Assembly: GCF_010672455.1 (NCBI RefSeq)
Contig: NZ_JAAHGO010000002.1
Span: forward strand, 186,001 to 250,000
Source of the DNA: Okeania sp. SIO2C9
Lineage (GTDB): Bacteria > Cyanobacteriota > Cyanobacteriia > Cyanobacteriales > Microcoleaceae
Reading direction: 5' to 3'
Length of the DNA: 64,000 nt
Positions within the stretch are counted from its first letter, which is position 1. Each line of letters begins with the position of its first letter. Below are positions 5,586 through 64,000 of this stretch, in pieces. The notes beneath the pieces were generated by a model that saw only the letters and a program-made list of their open reading frames with translations, had not been told where the DNA came from and did not search any database. The position numbers and the translations under genes are program-made.

Positions 5586-5838
5586 TTGATAATTGATAAT
5601 TGATAATGGATAATTACCTCTGGTTAAAACCGCTACGGAATTGAATATAAGGAAATATTATTTCTTTTCTCTTGGTCGATTGGATATGGCGAGGAGACCC
5701 GCTCTTGACAGAGCCGCTCCGAATAGGCGCCATCCCACCCAACGGGGAAGCTGCGAAGATCGACCGCTTTTTCCCCTTAAAACGGGGAGGCTTTAAATCA
5801 GAATCATTTAATTATTAATTATTAATTATTAATTATTC
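5586..5838. repeat. REP-2 element, copy 1
   Basis: (TTGATAA)n heptamers, then TAATTACCTCTGGTTAAAAC, a GC-richer core with GGTCGATTGGATATGG, then CCCCTTAAAACGGGGAGGC and (TTAATTA)n. The same ordered blocks recur at about ten places in the window, in both orientations. Confidence 0.75.
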
Positions 5839-54751: not shown

Positions 54752-55672
54752 TCAATTATTTCTTGACGACTTAACGTGCTTAACTAATAATCGAGCGATC
54801 GCTTCGAGCTGTTTATGATTAAAACTTTTAATAATTAATTTAACTACCTCTTTAGGGTCTTTTGGCAAAGTTACTTTTTTCTGTTCAGAAGCTGTTGCTA
54901 TTTCCTTAAGGTCTTGACTCTCCACTATTTCCTGTACTTTTCCTGCTTGGATCAACTCACCTGCTTGATTAAGTTCTTTAATAATTACAGGAGCTAGAAT
55001 TTGATAAGACAATTTAGAACTAGCGATCGCCTGTCGAGAATATGTAACTAAAGTATTCCAAATTTCTGTATTTTTATCCAACTTCAACAAACCATTACAA
55101 ACCTCTGTAAGCTGTTTTCTCGAATCAGGAGAGTCAGCCTGTTTAAACACTTCCAACATTTCTTTTAACTTACTCTTAACTTGTTGAGCAAATTTAGATT
55201 TAGATATTGTCTTCCCATTTCCAGAAGCAGTAGATTGAGAAACAGTGCCACCACTCACCAAAGTATTCAAATTAGTTTCTAATTCTGAAAAAATAGGCAA
55301 AGCATTATCAACAATTTCTTGTCCCTCTTCTTCCCTCAAACCATAGGGACCTTGCAGACGTTCTACTAAATCTTTGAGAGTATCATATCCTTTTAAAAAT
55401 TGAGACTCTACTGTTTGGTCAATATCAACAGGATTTTCGCGGATTATTTTGAAACAATCTTCTAAACGGTGAGCTACCTTTTGTACACTGTGTATTCCTA
55501 ACATAGCAGCCCCACCTTTGACAGAATGAGCTGCTCTAAACATATCATTAATAGTTTCAGAATCTGACATTGTAGACTTCAAATCTACCAACCCATTTTC
55601 TAGGGTAACTAAATGTTCTTCTGCTTCTAATATAAATAATTGTTTAATCCGATCATCTTGTTCTGTTGACAC
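54752..55672 (-). CDS. Hpt-domain phosphotransfer protein (CheA N-terminal-like)
   Basis: 306 residues. The N-terminal 110 are a histidine phosphotransfer domain, with phospho-accepting His in FRAAHSVKGGAAMLG and the second-helix motif AHRLEDCFKIIREN. The remaining part is helical with no kinase ATP site, so it cannot autophosphorylate and must relay phosphate between other proteins. In cyanobacteria similar stand-alone Hpt proteins act in split CheA systems for pili-based motility; I infer only a relay role here. The start is GTG with AGGAG eight bases upstream. It faces the 53869 gene tail to tail. Confidence 0.88.
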   Translation of the reverse strand: MSTEQDDRIKQLFILEAEEHLVTLENGLVDLKSTMSDSETINDMFRAAHSVKGGAAMLGIHSVQKVAHRLEDCFKIIRENPVDIDQTVESQFLKGYDTLKDLVERLQGPYGLREEEGQEIVDNALPIFSELETNLNTLVSGGTVSQSTASGNGKTISKSKFAQQVKSKLKEMLEVFKQADSPDSRKQLTEVCNGLLKLDKNTEIWNTLVTYSRQAIASSKLSYQILAPVIIKELNQAGELIQAGKVQEIVESQDLKEIATASEQKKVTLPKDPKEVVKLIIKSFNHKQLEAIARLLVKHVKSSRNN

Positions 55673-56640
55673 AATATTTCTCCTAAAAATTACAATTATT
55701 CACTAATTAAGTAAGAAAAAAAGGAGTTCAGTATAAAACTCCATTGACTTGAAGTTACTACTTCTATTCTAGCATTAATAACTGGAGTTCTAAAAGCATC
55801 TTATATGTAATTAACTACATCTATTTTAATCCTTTTTTGACTGAGAGTTAGCAGATAATTTAATGTTAACTAGCTGTCAGTTATCAGCTTGGGTTGAAAT
55901 CCCTGACTTGTACAAGTAGGATAATTTAAGAAGGGTTAAAATTCCCTTTTCAAGTGCATTTATCTCAGTTTCAGCTATTGATCGCTCCCTGTTTGGCGAG
56001 CATTCCTTTGAGGAAATGCTGACTGCAGCAATTGCCGTTTGCGGAGCATTCCGTCAGGAAACCCCTTTGATTTTTGTGCCCTACATTATGTCAAATCTTG
56101 TAATGAGGAGAAGGAGATACGGAGATGGAGAGATGGGGATATGGGGAGATGGGAGATGGGGATATGGGGAGATGGGGAGATGGGGAGATGGGAGATGGAG
56201 AGATGGGGATATGGGGGCTAAGGGGAGTAGGGATATGCTAAAATATAGCATTACTATTCAGAAATGGTATTATTACAGACCAAAAGCTTAAAACTCAGAC
56301 AACACAATATTTTTCCTTCTTCCCTCCTCCCTCAGGGCTAATTCATTGTCGTTAGAGAATATTTACCGAAAAATTAATAATTCAATAATTCAATAATTCA
56401 ATAATTCGCGCCTTGAAGCCTCCCCTTTCAAGGGGAAAAAAATAAATTTTTTCGGAGTTGGTCAATCCTCTTCCTTTTAGGGAAGGGAGAGGTAATTATC
56501 AATTATCCATTATCAATTATCCATTATTGAAAACCCTATATTTTTTTGATATCCTGTGCTTTCCACACTACCCCACACTCCCCATCCCTTTTTTCTCTGG
56601 TGATAATAAATTGATCCTTCCCTCTTCCCCAACCAGGACC
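55673..56640. repeat. Spacer with G-rich minisatellite and REP-2 copy
   Basis: 56111-56218 is an irregular GGAGATGGG/GGATATGGG array. Reading frames over it are artefacts. 56370-56500 is a REP-2 copy (GAAGCCTCCCCTTTCAAGG ... GGGAGAGGTAATTA) with (AATTCAAT)n and (ATTATCA)n borders. Confidence 0.7.
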
Positions 56641-57828
56641 TTAATGGCCTAAATAGCGATTATGCCAATATTTATAAGCAGCATAAGCCAAAGTAACCAC
56701 ACAAGTTACAATAGCAGATTCATCTACCTCAAACTGAGGATGATGCAGAGGATAGTTAGGTTTGTCTTTGTGTCCCACTCCTAAACGAAACATCATACCT
56801 GGAACTTCCTTCAGATACATAGAAAAGTCTTCCGCACCGAGGGAAGGCTCAGGTAAAATACAAACCCGATCGCTACCCCAAGCTTCCAAAGAAACTGACT
56901 CGACCAATTGAGTCAATGCTGGGTCATTTTGCACAGATGGTACTCCCTGACGATAATTCAGCTCATACTTAGCGCCATAAGAATGACAAATATTAGCCAC
57001 AATATTTTCAATCCATGCAGGTAAAACCTTATGGGTATCTGGATGAAGCGATCGCACAGTTCCCCACATTTTTACTTGGTCAGATATCACATTTGGCGCT
57101 CTTCCGCCACTAATCTTACCAATTGTTAACACTACAGGTCTTAAAGGATTATGAGTTCTACTAATGGCCTGCTGTAAATTAGTAATTACTTGGGAAGCGA
57201 TCCAAATTGCATCAATAGCTTCATGGGGACGGGCACCATGACCAGACTCCCCAATAATTGTCAGTTCCAAATCATCAGCAGCAGCAGTTAGTACCCCGTG
57301 ACGAATACCCACCGAACCTGCTGGAATAGTTGGGTAAACATGGACTCCTAAAATTCCCTGTACATCCTCAAGTGCCCCATCTTCAATCATCCAACTTGCA
57401 CCTTGGGCAATTTCCTCTGCTGGTTGAAACAGAAACCGAACATTACCTGGTAAGGGTTCTCCCAATTCAGATAATACCATTGCCGCCCCTAGTCCTACAG
57501 TTGTATGGACATCGTGACCACAAGCGTGCATAATGCCAGTATTACGGGAAGCAAAATCTAAATTAGTACATTCTTTAATCGGCAAAGCATCCATATCGGT
57601 ACGAATAGCCAACCATTGATTATTACTATTAACTTTGAGTTCTCCCAGAACACCAGTTTTACCTATAGACTCTCGTACATGAAGACCACAGGAAGACAGC
57701 ACACCTGCAACATAAGCAGCCGTTTGGTACTCTTGGCCACTTAATTCTGGGTGAGAGTGAATATGACGACGAATTTCAATCATACGGGGGGCCAGGGTAG
57801 CTGTTAAATCTTTAATTTTAGTTAGCAT
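56641..57828 (-). CDS. M20-family amidohydrolase (IAA-amino acid hydrolase-like)
   Basis: A 395-residue zinc or manganese aminoacylase/carboxypeptidase-type enzyme. Metal ligands are in MHACGHDVHTTVG, PAEEIAQGA, GVHVYPT and LGAEDFSMY, and the dimerisation-domain motif GESGHGARPHEAIDA is complete. It probably hydrolyses N-acyl or peptide-like amides of amino acids; the substrate is unknown. The ATG at 57828 (MLTKIKDLTATLAPRM) is preferred to the one at 57888, because the extra leader is not family-like. It is divergent from the MscS gene. Confidence 0.92.
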   Translation of the reverse strand: MLTKIKDLTATLAPRMIEIRRHIHSHPELSGQEYQTAAYVAGVLSSCGLHVRESIGKTGVLGELKVNSNNQWLAIRTDMDALPIKECTNLDFASRNTGIMHACGHDVHTTVGLGAAMVLSELGEPLPGNVRFLFQPAEEIAQGASWMIEDGALEDVQGILGVHVYPTIPAGSVGIRHGVLTAAADDLELTIIGESGHGARPHEAIDAIWIASQVITNLQQAISRTHNPLRPVVLTIGKISGGRAPNVISDQVKMWGTVRSLHPDTHKVLPAWIENIVANICHSYGAKYELNYRQGVPSVQNDPALTQLVESVSLEAWGSDRVCILPEPSLGAEDFSMYLKEVPGMMFRLGVGHKDKPNYPLHHPQFEVDESAIVTCVVTLAYAAYKYWHNRYLGH

Positions 57829-58138
57829 AGATAATTTATATTTGTGTAGTATAGAGTCTATCTCAAGTACATTAAATGATGATAACAAAGGGGAATTATC
57901 CTTGGAAATTATTAAGCAATAAGTTTTGCTGGAAATGGCGATCGCCGACCGTTGTATTATATGAGGATCGATCTCTGAGTGTCTTTTGAATCCTACTTAA
58001 CTTTGAGATAAATTTGTTTTATTTAGATAGGAGTGATCGCCAACCGTTTGCCTAAAACTAAAAAATAGCTGAATGCTAAATACTTATCTATTAACTGAAA
58101 AACTACTAAATTATTCAAGGAATCTGACTTTATTAATC

Positions 58139-59293
58139 ATGGAAAAATTTTGGCAAAGTCTGATAAATATTACAATTCTAGATATACCAGCAAGAAAAAT
58201 ATTTTTTATTGCTCTGGCTTTAATAGGAATATTAGGATTAAAAGAACTATTCAGCATAATATTAATTAAGCAAGTTGAGGCTTTAACTCGTCATACAAAA
58301 ACTACCCTTGACGATCAATTAATTGCATCTGTTAAACAGCCGATAGGGTGGTTTATCTATATACTTGGATTGTGGATTCTACAATTAATATTAACAGATT
58401 CTATTTCTCCCCAATTAAATCAAATAGTCACAGGAATTATTAACTTAGCAATAGTAGGTAATTTTTCACTAATTATCTACCGTATCTCTCCGATATTAGG
58501 AGAATTTTTTAGTAATTTATCAGCTCAAACTGAGACTGAATTAGATGATATTATTAGCCCTTATCTGCCGATATTATTTAGGTTTACTGCTATCCTGATT
58601 TTTGGCTTAAAAGCAGGAGAATTATTACTAGGAACTTCTGTTACTGCAATCTTTGGTTTAGTCGGTGGCGCTGGTTTAACGTTAGGTTTATTATTTAAGG
58701 ATGTTATTAGTGATTGGTTAGCTACAATTGTAATTTACAGTGACAGCTTGTATCGTGAAAATGATTTGATTTTACTACCAAGTGGTGTTTTGGGGCAGGT
58801 TACGAAAATTGGTATTAGAAGTACAACAGTTTATTTAAAGTTTAAGGGAGCTATCCAGAAAGTTCCTAACTCTAAAATGATTGATGGCAACATCAAAAAT
58901 TTCTGCCAACAGCCAATTGAAAATCGGAAAGCAGCTATTGATTTATTCATTAAAATTGACGGAATTTCAGCTCAGAAAATAGCCGATATTAATGAGAAAA
59001 TTCGACAAATTCCTAAATCAATTGACATTTTAGATGATTCTTGTCTGGTGAGATTTGATGGATTAGACAGAAATGCTCGCGTGATTAGAGTAATTGGATA
59101 TACTAACAATTTAGATAAGTATTATAGCTCTTATGACAAATTAAATTTGGCAATTTTGGCTTTATTGGAGCAAGAGGGAATAGATTTATTTAATATTAAT
59201 ATTATTAGTGATACAGAAACTTATAAAAGTTGGCAGTCTAGTCAAAATTTAGGGATTGAACAAGGGAATAGAGAATATATAAATCCTATTTAA
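58139..59293 (+). CDS. MscS-family mechanosensitive channel
   Basis: A small-conductance mechanosensitive channel-type protein, 384 residues from the ATG at 58139 (406 from an ATG at 58073). It has four or five membrane helices (IFFIALALIGILGLKEL, PIGWFIYILGLWILQLIL, and a pore helix with GLVGGAGLTLGLLFKDVISD). The beta domain LYRENDLILLPSGVLGQVTKIGIRS and a C-terminal alpha/beta domain follow. The earlier ATG lies in a GCTGAATGCT string that is repeated elsewhere, so the later start is favoured. It likely releases solutes on hypo-osmotic shock. Confidence 0.9.
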   Translation: MEKFWQSLINITILDIPARKIFFIALALIGILGLKELFSIILIKQVEALTRHTKTTLDDQLIASVKQPIGWFIYILGLWILQLILTDSISPQLNQIVTGIINLAIVGNFSLIIYRISPILGEFFSNLSAQTETELDDIISPYLPILFRFTAILIFGLKAGELLLGTSVTAIFGLVGGAGLTLGLLFKDVISDWLATIVIYSDSLYRENDLILLPSGVLGQVTKIGIRSTTVYLKFKGAIQKVPNSKMIDGNIKNFCQQPIENRKAAIDLFIKIDGISAQKIADINEKIRQIPKSIDILDDSCLVRFDGLDRNARVIRVIGYTNNLDKYYSSYDKLNLAILALLEQEGIDLFNINIISDTETYKSWQSSQNLGIEQGNREYINPI

Positions 59294-59323
59294 GTTGTAA
59301 TATTTTCCTGGCAGCTAGGAGTC

Positions 59324-59508
59324 ATATCAAGTTCGGTAGCATCGTTATTGTCAAGGTAAGGAAGAAGGAAGAAGGAAGAGGGAAGAAGTGAAGAGGGAAG
59401 AAGGCTTTAGTTATCTAGAATAGAAGACTTAAAAGTCCAAAAAACCTGAAATTTTTTGTAGATATTCACCCTTGGGTTTACACAAACGATAAAGTGCGGA
59501 CATGATAT
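59324..59508. mobile_element. MITE-6, intact 185-bp copy
   Basis: ATATCAAGTTCGG ... GCGGACATGATAT, with a single C outside each end. Removing it with one C joins GGAGT-C-AGGAATCAGGAGTCAG, a continuous AGGAGTC repeat. Confidence 0.82.
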
Positions 59509-59588
59509 CAGGAATCAGGAGTCAGGAGTCATAGTTTTCAATGTTTTCAACTCAGATTAACTATTAGAAAAAATATTACCAAATAATT

Positions 59589-59859
59589 AGGGTTTGCGCT
59601 TCACTAGTCTTTTAGTAGGACTAGCAGACAGGAGACAGGAGACAAGAGACAACCCACCCGCGCGCCCCTCCCAGGAGGGGATAAATGGCTTGGGAGCGAA
59701 GAGGTAGGGGTAAGAATTGTAAGAATGATTTTTCTCCCATAATCGTCCCAAAATACTAGCTTTTTGAGCGTTTTAGACGTGATACCAGGCACTTTTTTTG
59801 ACCCAAAAAATCCTAAAGTTTTTATATATCAATGCTTTTAGATTTAATCAGCAAGCCCT
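59589..59859. mobile_element. MITE-1 copy 7
   Basis: AGGGTTTGCGCTTC ... AATCAGCAAGCCCT, 271 bp, with AATT on both flanks. The inner part has gained a CCCGCGCGCCCCTCCCAGGA string. Confidence 0.85.
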
Positions 59860-59883
59860 AATTAATCGAAACTTCAGTATGCT

Positions 59884-60117
59884 CAGGACTTACGCAGAGA
59901 CTCTGCATATAGCGAGGGCGTTTTGCTCCGCAACATATAAAGCAGTCGAAGCAAAGGTTAGGACAGATAAAAAGCTTAAAACTCAGATAACGTAATACTT
60001 TTCCTTCTTCCTTCTTCCCTCTTCCTTCTTTCTTCTGCTATAAAGCAGCAGCTCTGCGTTAGCAAATGCCATTTGCCCCTACAGATGGTGGTTTAAAGGT
60101 CAATTTCGTAAGTCCTG
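59884..60117. mobile_element. MITE-7 copy 2, with extra internal sequence
   Basis: Ends CAGGACTTACG and CGTAAGTCCTG (perfect 11 bp), flanked by the duplication ATGCT at 59879-59883 and 60118-60122. The interior carries a (CTTCCTT)n run and a piece of the GGCAAATGGCATTTGC palindrome. Confidence 0.92.
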
Positions 60118-60203
60118 ATGCTGATTTTAGAGAGGCTAATTTGACTGATGCTAGCCTCCAAAATGCTGATTTAATGTTGGCAAATTTACAAGGTGCAAAA
60201 CTG

Positions 60204-60528
60204 ATATCATGTCCGGTAGCATCGGTATTGTATAGCGAAGGTAAGGAAGAAGGAAGAAGGAAGAGGGAAGAAGGCTTAAAAGCTTGAACAGGACTTACGC
60301 AAATTGATTTTAGCGAAGGTAAGGAAGAAGGAAGAAGGAAGAGGGAAGAAGGCTTAAAAGCTTGAACAGGACTTACGCAAATTGATTTTTAAGCACCATT
60401 TGTAAGAGTAAATAGTATTCTTTCTCGCTATATGTAGAGTCTCTGGGTAAGTCCTGTTGAAAAAACCTAAATTTCCTGTAGATATTCACCCTTGGATTTA
60501 CACAAACGCGCCCCAGCGGACATGATAT
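60204..60528. mobile_element. MITE-6 copy with nested MITE-7 and 78-bp tandem duplication
   Basis: ATATCATGTCCGG ... GCGGACATGATAT with G on both outer sides. Inside, TAGCGAAGGTAAGGAAGAAG recurs at 60233 and 60311 (78-bp duplication), and a MITE-7 copy is inserted at 60367. Confidence 0.92.
60367..60456. mobile_element. MITE-7 copy 3, nested
   Basis: CAGGACTTACGCAAATT ... CTGGGTAAGTCCTG, 90 bp, flanked by the duplication TTGAA (60362-60366 and 60457-60461). The related MITE-6 copies near 53440 and 59430 lack it. Confidence 0.9.
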
Positions 60529-60592
60529 GACACGAGCTAATCTAAAACACGCTAATCTTCAAGATGCAAAATTTCAGGCAGCTCAGATGGTT

Positions 60593-60762
60593 ATATCATG
60601 TCCGGTTGAATAGTTATAAATAAAAATGGAGGAGTAATGAGTAATGAGTTATGAGTAATGAGTTATGAGTTATGAGTTATGAGTTATGAGTTATGAGGAG
60701 GGAATTTTAAGCTATAAATGAAGAGAAAGTTTTTTGATCACGCTCTTATCCGGACATGATAT
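60593..60762. mobile_element. MITE-6 copy in pentapeptide gene
   Basis: ATATCATGTCCGGTTGAATAG ... TCCGGACATGATAT, 170 bp, with T on both outer sides. The interior is partly (GAGTTAT)n heptamers. Confidence 0.9.
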
Positions 60763-61075
60763 TAATGGAAATTTCCAAGGTGCAAACTTAACTTATGCAA
60801 ATTTGGAAGGTGCTAATTTAGCAAATGCTGAGTTAAGCAACAGTCGTTTGACAGGAGCAATACTCAGAGGAGCTAATTTACAGGGAGAAATTTTAGAAAA
60901 AGCTGACTTTGAGAACGCAAATTTAGCAGGTGTTAATTTTAAGGGAGCACATTTAGAGGGTGCAAATTTTCAAGGAATTGAAGCAGAATATATTTCCTGG
61001 GATACAATACAACTGTGCAATACAATTTTACCTCATGGAAGTATCAGCGATCATGACTGTATAGAACCCATTTGA

Positions 61076-61250
61076 GATGGGGAGATGGGGAGATGGGGAG
61101 ATGGGGAGATGGGGAGATGGGGAGATGGGGAGATGGGGAGATTGGGAGATGGGGAGATGGGGAGATGGGGAGATGGGGAGATGGGGAGAGGGGGAGATGG
61201 GGAGATGGGGAGAGGGGGGGGTTGGGAGATTGGGAGATGGGGAGATGGGT
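61076..61250. repeat. (GGGGAGAT)n minisatellite after the pentapeptide stop
   Basis: About 20 octamer units start immediately after the TGA. Frames on either strand (MGRWGDGE..., PISPSPHL...) are artefacts. Confidence 0.9.
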
Positions 61251-61326
61251 AGGTACAATGAGTAAAAAAAGCGCACCGCCCGCTCTCTCGGTTTCCTCAC
61301 AGTAAGGACAGGACGGAGCAAGAACG

Positions 61327-61491
61327 AAACCCCAGACTATCTACTGCTAGATGTCTTTTAATGCCGTTGGTAGCTTTGTAAAAACAAAACCCTTTAGACT
61401 TGATACTGGCATTACAAGTATTTTTTACCGCCTGTGAATCAATGATTATTAAAGTTGTCCATTTGGTTTTTTTTACCTGAGCAGCGTACAA
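61327..61491 (-). pseudogene. IS5-type DDE transposase fragment
   Basis: TTLIIIDSQAVKNTCNASI then GFCFYKATNGIKRHLAVDSLG matches the first catalytic Asp region (IIDSQAVK) and the KRHLAVD segment of IS5-like transposases. Both ends are lost; the break is at LGF. Confidence 0.8.
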
Positions 61492-61639
61492 GAGAGATGC
61501 AATACATCTCTAATTGGTAGTGGTGCATTGTAATTTTTTCGGTAACTGTATAGCAAGCATTTCAGCCACCATTCACCATTACTATACAGGACTACCATGT
61601 TACGAAGACTTGGTGCTACAAAATCTGGCTGTTCTTAAG

Positions 61640-62530
61640 ATTTGTTTTACAAACAGTCTTCCAATTACTATTCTGGCTGCTTTATTAATACCCAAATCGA
61701 ATTTGGCGGTTACGCTTTTCTGTAATTGCAGCTAGTTTATTTGACCAAAATCCATTCGGTTTATTTTCTTTGATAGTTGATACCTGTTTATTGTACCAAC
61801 GATTCATTGATTTGAGATGTTTACCGTCTACTATCAAGCTAGTACCTACATTAGATACACAGGTCAACCAATTATTTACACCGTGGTCTATTCCTAAGAC
61901 ATTATCTTGATTTAATTGAGGTTTAACTACGGTTTCTTTTTCATAGACACGCTTCCCAATAAAAACATCTGTTTCTCGGTAATATTCTCAGTTCTTTAAT
62001 AGCAGAAAATGCTCTTATACTAGGCATTGGAATTAAACAGCAATCCAAACCAAACCAGCGTTTACAGGTATTCTAAGCGTGGTACTCTAATTTGATTATC
62101 TTTAAGTTTTAATGCTTGCTTGGGGTAACTAACTGTAGCCATTACCCCTTTTTTTCTATAGTTAGAAATCCTTGGTCTGTCTGAGATTTTTCCTGAACTA
62201 TAGGCAATAATGAGACCATCCTGAAGAGAGAAATGATTCAGCTACAGTTCTCAATATTTGTTGTGCTGAAGAGCGAATATAAAACTTTGTAATGATAGTT
62301 GTGCTTATAAACTTTTTCCTGCGTCAAACTTGCCGAGAGTTTTGTGAGACTTAAAAAATAATTGCCGACCATAATATATTCCCATGTTAGTAAGCTTGTG
62401 AGACTGTTCACATAAGAATGTTAAAATAGCAATTAATTCAGGATTTTTACCTACTAAAACTTGCTGACAACAGTACATTTGAAACGGGCAGACCGAAAAG
62501 TTATTGTAGGTAATAATAGCACAGGACAAC
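61640..62530 (-). pseudogene. TnpB (IS200/IS605-group OrfB) pseudogene
   Basis: Pieces in order on the minus strand: QQVLVGKNPELIAILTFLCE, QSHKLTNMGIYYGRQLFFKS, then AQQILRTVAESF, NYRKKGVMATVSYPKQALK, KELRILPRNRCFYWEA, then the RuvC-I part DNVLGIDHGVNNWLTCVSN, SLIVDGKHLKSMNRWYNKQ and INKAARIVI. There are many frameshifts and stops, and the C-terminal zinc finger is missing, so it is not an active RNA-guided nuclease. Confidence 0.88.
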
Positions 62531-62588
62531 TAAAGTTGTCTAGTCTAAAGGACTCGCTTGTTTTCATCCCCCGGTTAAAATACGGGGG
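62525..62588. other. Two hairpins at the probable left end of the TnpB element
   Basis: GACAACTAAAGTTGTC (7-bp arms) at 62525 and CCCCCGGTTAAAATACGGGGG (6-bp arms) at 62568, just upstream of the TnpB pseudogene, as expected for IS200/IS605-type subterminal hairpins. Confidence 0.55.
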
Positions 62589-62724
62589 CTTTCAACGTCG
62601 CTTTTCGGTAAGGATAAAAATCTTCTCCGACACATGAATAGTCACTGCACTTATATTGGAGACATAGAGAGCTTTTTAGAAGAACATTTAAACTATCGAC
62701 CTTACACCAAAATTTATGTTGCCG

Positions 62725-62877
62725 ATGAAGATTTATAAAACTTTCCGAAAATTGCAATGTCCAGCGTGCGGAAGCAGTAATATAAGAAAAGGACATCACG
62801 AATACTGGTGTCAAGATTGTGGTCATCACTGCCTACGGACAAAAACAGTGGGGATTCACTTTGACAGATTAATATAG
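62725..62877 (+). pseudogene. Zinc-ribbon fragment of an IS1-like transposase
   Basis: A 50-residue frame with CPACGSSNIRKGHHEYWCQDC, a CxxC/CxxC ribbon like the N-terminus of IS1-type InsA proteins. It stops after HHCLRTKTVGIHFD, with no HTH or DDE part. It could be an isolated small protein, but a remnant is more likely in this IS graveyard. Confidence 0.55.
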
Positions 62878-62976
62878 ATATTATGACTTTTGAGTTTTGA
62901 TTTTCAAATTTTTACTTTTTGAATAATAGTTGAGCTAAAGTAATATTTTGTTAAGTGGGATAAATTAAGGGTCTAG

Positions 62977-64000
<1,024 letters not shown>

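Follow-up and report, generated by a model that had tools for sequence, protein, structure and literature searches.

If the DNA of a pentapeptide-repeat protein is broken up by several MITEs and its pieces can still be joined into one reading frame, was a complete gene destroyed where it stood, or did the elements settle in a sequence that was already dead? This question is raised by a locus in the window, i.e. the whole stretch of 64,000 nucleotides that we analyzed (G000:C112:186001-250000), which is part of the 10.9-Mb genome of Okeania sp. SIO2C9. A first-pass annotation of this stretch had described a pentapeptide gene interrupted by one MITE-7 and two MITE-6 elements, with a readable order of insertion. 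We favor, at a probability of about 0.88, a different reading, namely that the locus holds an incomplete, dead duplicate of a pentapeptide-repeat gene, which became the landing ground for several non-autonomous element families and for which an order of events can be proposed.

Cyanobacterial pseudogenes made by MITEs and insertion of one MITE in another are already known, and the present locus is a well-ordered example of them. The genome of Anabaena sp. 90 is reported to contain 147 complete or partial MITEs, of which 15 lie within disrupted ORFs (PMC3542288). The likeness lies in the MITE-disrupted ORFs of a cyanobacterium, whereas the window, set against those reported counts, has three MITEs in a single fragment, further elements nested in them, and relatives that provide empty sites and a partial order. 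Similarly, the BOX, RUP and SPRITE sequences of Streptococcus pneumoniae are described as small clustered elements that are inserted in one another and also in pseudogenes (PMC10969869), an arrangement that resembles the bunched and mutually inserting elements seen here, although the element families and the host are different. Pseudogenes close to mobile DNA are also described in a cyanobacterial symbiont (PMC4369082). In a limited search of the Okeania genome and repeat literature, covering titles and the starts of abstracts, we found no prior account of this locus. It offers a compact and partly ordered record of a large Okeania genome filling with nested small elements, and it suggests that gene remnants may be lost through recombination between such elements.

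Architecture of the locus

The components named by the first-pass annotation (MITE-7 at 59884, MITE-6 at 60204 and 60593, a nested MITE-7 at 60367 and a 78-bp duplication) are all present where it had placed them, but its inventory of the nesting overlooked the element at 59590-59858, the repeat at 59938-60042 and an IS end starting at 61060. The features of the locus are the following:

59325..59507, + strand: MITE-6c, an upstream copy; target duplication TCA; common to O. hirsuta
59590..59858, strand not assigned: another insertion, bounded by the inverted ends GGGTTTGC/GCAAGCCC; absent in O. hirsuta
59865..59883, + strand: start of the fragment (SKLQYA...), with an in-frame TAA just upstream
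59884..60117, + strand: MITE-7a, 234 bp; 5-bp target duplication ATGCT (59879-59883, 60118-60122)
59938..60042, + strand: small repeat of about 105 bp in MITE-7a; ends TAAAGCAG/CTGCTATA, in other copies TATAGCAG/CTGCTATA
60123..60203, + strand: fragment piece DFREANLTDASLQNADLMLANLQGAKL; the preceding A falls in the duplicated target site
60205..60527, + strand: MITE-6a; target duplication TGA (60202-60204, 60528-60530); absent in O. hirsuta
60233..60388, + strand: 78-bp perfect tandem duplication (60233-60310/60311-60388); absent in SIO2B3
60367..60456, + strand: MITE-7b, nested in MITE-6a; target duplication TTGAA (60362-60366, 60457-60461)
60530..60592, + strand: fragment piece TRANLKHANLQDAKFQAAQMV
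60594..60761, + strand: MITE-6b; target duplication TTA (60591-60593, 60762-60764); 7-bp tandem array; absent in O. hirsuta
60764..61059, + strand: last fragment piece, NGNFQGANL...SDHDC
61060..61074, + strand: TATAGAACCCATTTG, 15 bases that are the same as in the terminal repeat of L189, an IS5-family locus with a DUF4096 match
61076..61252, + strand: 8-bp tandem array of the GAGATGGG type, separating the IS end from the IS remnant
61253..61515, - strand: IS5-family (DUF4096-type) remnant, 98.9% identical to a DUF4096 locus (L186)

The one-base duplication that had been ascribed to MITE-6 has to be amended to one of 3 bp with the form TNA, while the net length removed with each copy is the same. 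Upstream of the fragment lies an mscS-like channel gene (58073-59293), which is a second copy found in only three of five Okeania genomes; the other mscS-like copy, 81% identical to it, occurs elsewhere in all five of the Okeania genomes searched. The locus itself is present in only three of the five genus genomes searched, so the order of events proposed below draws on few data; the carriers compared were the window, Okeania hirsuta (L099) and Okeania sp. SIO2B3 (L100). On the downstream side, the DNA from 61253 to 62900, up to the next long ORF (62986, presumably serS), reads as transposase remnants, as shown for 61253-61515 and judged by eye for the rest.

A fragment of a gene that survives elsewhere

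Joining the flanks of the inserts yields, as had been claimed, a single stop-free frame in exact five-residue register (QYADF REANL TDASL ... SISDHDCIEPI*). This result is weak evidence when taken alone, because, when pairs of cuts with these net lengths were placed at random in 60120-61072, 896 of 20,000 likewise left no stop. Nor does a stop-free joined frame prove that a gene formerly stood at the same place, and it would fit a young or still selected sequence too. The strong evidence for the joins is the ortholog described in the next section, not the openness of the frame. Both of the two fragment pieces that were scanned match PF00805 (60120-60203 with 34 bits and 60764-61072 with 84.6 bits, at a cut-off of 20.2), in which respect they are like other pentapeptide-repeat proteins of this family; the window copy differs from those in being interrupted and in having neither a start nor a native end. 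A start codon is absent from the joined frame, QYADF being preceded by TAA TCG AAA CTT, of which the TAA is in frame.

A full-length version of the same gene is found elsewhere in the genome (G000:C1:297126-298052). It encodes 309 aa, begins with MKQLLLLLALAGILSLGS and has a hydrophobic stretch at its start, which we take to be a signal-peptide-like N-terminus. In comparison with this paralog, the fragment sequence is unlike the gene upstream of about AATC, with homology beginning only at about codon 88, and the N-terminus is missing, the paralog carrying about 87 more codons. The last fragment piece has a 66-codon in-frame internal deletion, which is common to O. hirsuta. Homology to the paralog stops at 61059, where the native C-terminal end is absent and an IS terminal repeat takes over; as the sequence from 61060 onward belongs to an IS5-family terminal repeat, the last codons and the stop of the joined frame are not native. 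What had been called a pentapeptide gene is instead a 5'-truncated, internally deleted and IS-terminated fragment of the 309-aa gene, and we infer that it never encoded a protein at this locus. An upstream ORF in another frame (MTQKILKFLYINAFRFNQQALINRNFS...) was considered as the missing N-terminus and rejected, since it lies mostly within the element at 59590-59858, which is missing in O. hirsuta.

At E <= 1e-30 only three of 59 genomes sampled from the family gave matches, namely the full-length copy of this genome itself, the O. hirsuta fragment, and a genome of another genus (G011), which has a 318-aa frame with 73% identity. The sequence of the upstream neighbor in G011 resembles, by eye, that of the C1 gene; because this neighbor sequence is shared with another genus, C1 is probably the ancestral home of the gene. 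When searched by DNA, the full-length gene and its neighboring DNA were found only in the window's own genome among the five genus genomes. Solved structural relatives of the full-length paralog include All3740, NP275-NP276 and the Rfr proteins. Using G011 as an outgroup, a tally by eye of 32 listed codons placed nine amino-acid changes (ten with one codon at a frayed end) and six silent changes on the branch of the fragment, as against three amino-acid and six silent changes on the branch of the C1 gene, with seven codons being ambiguous; the excess of amino-acid changes on the fragment branch is too small to carry weight.

Empty sites and shared damage in Okeania hirsuta

The DNA of O. hirsuta is 97.8% identical to that of the window over the 2.6 kb upstream, after which it too has the fragment. 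Both MITE-6a and MITE-6b sites are empty in this species: the BLAST pieces flanking them have an overlap of exactly three bases, TGA for MITE-6a and TTA for MITE-6b, and the predicted junctions of 48 and 47 bases match L099 exactly, at 5763 and 5827. These exact empty sites in a related species show that the MITE-6 inserts are plain insertions. The first-pass annotation had held that orthologs with unrelated sequence at the joined positions would speak against its reconstruction; at both MITE-6 joins O. hirsuta instead has the joined sequence itself. Conceivably, though, the empty sites could have arisen by precise excision in O. hirsuta rather than from the window lineage having gained the elements later. 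For MITE-7a the empty site is seen only in the C1 paralog, since O. hirsuta also has MITE-7a, in a shorter form from which most of the middle DNA is missing. The joined 14-mer TATGCTGATTTTAG is found in that paralog, and the joined 23-mer is absent from it owing to a difference of one base.

Though it is without either MITE-6, O. hirsuta has the in-frame TAA, MITE-7a and the 66-codon deletion in common with the window, and its copy likewise lacks the 5' end. It follows that the 5' loss and the 66-codon deletion predate the MITE-6 copies, and also that transcripts free of the inserts would still not make a protein. Across the 123 codons that could be compared between the window and O. hirsuta, the sole coding difference is a change of Ala to Glu, in a repeat of the ORF at 60734-61075. 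The 3' end of the O. hirsuta fragment is replaced after the position corresponding to 60976 of the window. By eye, the replacing sequence (L099 after 6062) reads like a repeat protein of the hemagglutinin type, and we take it to be hemagglutinin-like.

Alternative explanations

It is conceivable that a complete pentapeptide gene was destroyed in place by the MITEs, its 5' and 3' ends being lost in the same decay; this would account for the exact register in which the pieces join in one stop-free frame, and MITE-7a alone could precede the loss of the 5' end. We nevertheless regard such a history as improbable, given that O. hirsuta, which has no MITE-6, already lacks the 5' end and has both MITE-7a and the 66-codon deletion, and given that the C1 gene, with upstream neighbor sequence shared with another genus, is probably the ancestral home. 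Even less credible is the proposal that the MITEs made new small genes from the fragment, MITE-7a supplying an ATG in frame with it and MITE-6b a TTG, the second product possibly forming a short helix. The two ORFs do exist (60066-60287 from the MITE-7a ATG and 60734-61075 from the MITE-6b TTG), and the second encodes 113 aa of mostly pentapeptide sequence, with a native part that accounts for the match of 84.6 bits to PF00805. Yet the promoter-like matches found in the region (three, with 2.9 expected) do not exceed the chance level, by eye neither ORF is kept in the same form in O. hirsuta and SIO2B3, and the lone coding difference among the 123 codons compared with O. hirsuta, the Ala to Glu change, lies in a repeat of the second ORF.

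A further idea, that the inserts leave the RNA or the DNA by a splicing-like process or by programmed precise excision, and that a product is still made, appears to us highly improbable. The sites of MITE-6 are indeed empty in O. hirsuta, and taking out MITE-6b, or MITE-6a stripped of its later additions, would remove a net length of 171 or 153, respectively, each divisible by three; but the net length of MITE-7a (239) is not, and even after excision there is no start in frame. Moreover, the MITE-6 copies examined elsewhere mostly have ordinary target duplications (14/18 and 15/16 in the two sets detailed below). An Rfam scan of 55000-64000 gave no family at gathering score, so that an intron or ribozyme reading is unsupported.

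SIO2B3 and a proposed order of events

For the dead partial duplicate, the order in which its inserts were acquired can be partly read from the third carrier of the locus, as the three strains have differently broken copies of the fragment. In SIO2B3 other DNA, presumably IS200/IS605 TnpB-like, occupies the place of the fragment's middle (window 60502-60945), and 45 C-terminal residues of the joined frame still find a match. MITE-6a is not visible within the SIO2B3 fragment because its right flank is disrupted by this other DNA; and since the stretch with MITE-6b, the upstream element and the repeat in MITE-7a is gone there, these three cannot be placed in time relative to SIO2B3. The MITE at the MITE-6c position in SIO2B3 appears to be a chimera, with a left part of the 6c type, which the left half of the window's MITE-6c resembles, and a right part of the 6a type. 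A MITE-7 lies within this right part, inserted at the site it occupies in the window and flanked by the identical TTGAA duplication, and the 78-bp repeat is absent.

The simplest reading of the chimera suggests recombination between 6c and 6a in a shared repeat tract, after the insertion of MITE-7b and before, or without, the duplication. The earlier order of MITE-6a, then MITE-7b, then duplication thus gains support from SIO2B3, where a MITE-7 occupies the same MITE-6 site without the 78-bp duplication; that MITE-7b came before the duplication is also supported because the duplicated unit itself includes the first 22 bases of MITE-7b. Alternatively, the right half could derive from a different MITE-6 that carries a MITE-7 in this position; among 194 fetched loci the joining 19-mer was found in 11, all of which are the window's or SIO2B3's own locus. 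For SIO2B3, a 6c-6a recombination accounts for no more than the missing first part of the fragment. In the mscS-like gene the window and SIO2B3 differ at 11 positions and the window and O. hirsuta at 18 (each of 1221 columns), as compared to 15 (of 1240 columns) between O. hirsuta and SIO2B3; the divergence being least between the window and SIO2B3, these counts fit the proposed order.

We accordingly propose a sequence of steps in which the fragment with its deletion, and MITE-7a, would have come first. MITE-6a would then have been inserted, followed by MITE-7b inside it, probably before the lineages of the window and SIO2B3 split, and the 78-bp duplication would have come after these. MITE-6b, the repeat internal to MITE-7a and the upstream element were probably acquired once the lineage had separated from that of O. 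hirsuta. In the SIO2B3 lineage, MITE-6c and MITE-6a would have recombined with loss of the DNA between them, which in the window measures 880 bp, and other DNA would have taken the place of the fragment's middle. A tentative extension, which we hold to be doubtful but possible, is that the short tandem arrays in the middle of MITE-6 serve as recombination handles, by means of which two copies 0.9 kb apart recombined within their common array in the SIO2B3 lineage and the DNA between them was deleted. If general, array-bearing MITEs would constitute a deletion machinery clearing pseudogenes between copies in large marine cyanobacterial genomes.

The element families

MITE-6 elements are short and have terminal inverted repeats TATCATGTCCGG/CCGGACATGATA (end sequence TATCATGTCC) but no transposase. 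Exact MITE-6 ends number 538, as against one for a reversed-pattern control, and 16 regions were picked from the first 100 of these 538 ends. The 17 end pairs recovered for the 16 regions span 125-240 bp; equal 3-bp TNA duplications flank 15 of the 17 pairs and are thereby found in 15 of the 16 regions, in one of them via the inner of two nested pairs. As read by eye, the flanks of 18 copies from a similarity search are equal duplications in 14 cases and TTA/TAA in the remaining four. A TNA target with a 3-bp duplication is reported for the IS1031 subgroup of IS5 (PMC12016507), which MITE-6 resembles in both respects and from which it differs in being without a transposase. As to a parental IS, MITE-6 ends do not bound any of the 15 DUF4096 loci, some of which are truncated at contig ends. 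A search of the window and the fetched loci for a parent of MITE-6 or MITE-7, in the form of end pairs 600-2000 bp apart with equal duplications, gave three pairs, none with a transposase. In one of these pairs, from another genome (G001, L121 1371-2959), a relative of mscS is enclosed by MITE-6 ends that are both flanked by TAA, an arrangement that may reflect chance or composite movement.

MITE-7 has terminal inverted repeats, and 5-bp duplications flank both copies in the window; elsewhere the 5-bp duplications are equal in seven of 13 copies and unequal in the other six. Exact MITE-7 ends number 400, versus none for the control. The small repeat nested in MITE-7a (59938-60042) has relatives in at least about 40 places in the genome, with 40 of 668 candidates scored. 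TATA ends are seen in copies of it, with no clean empty site, and it may be a TA-target element of the Tc1/mariner-like kind. The repeat is absent from the MITE-7a of O. hirsuta, though the surrounding interior of the MITE differs there as well. The element at 59590-59858 is flanked by a 6-bp target duplication, TAATTA (59584-59589, 59859-59864). A match of 59711-60042 to L100 was set aside, as it looks like two separate elements chained by BLAST.

Heptanucleotide arrays of the GAGTTAT/GAAGAAG type lie in the middle of MITE-6 elements at 60594-60761 and 60233-60388 of the window and in three other loci (L136, L142 and L143), and short tandem repeats may spread by MITE transposition.
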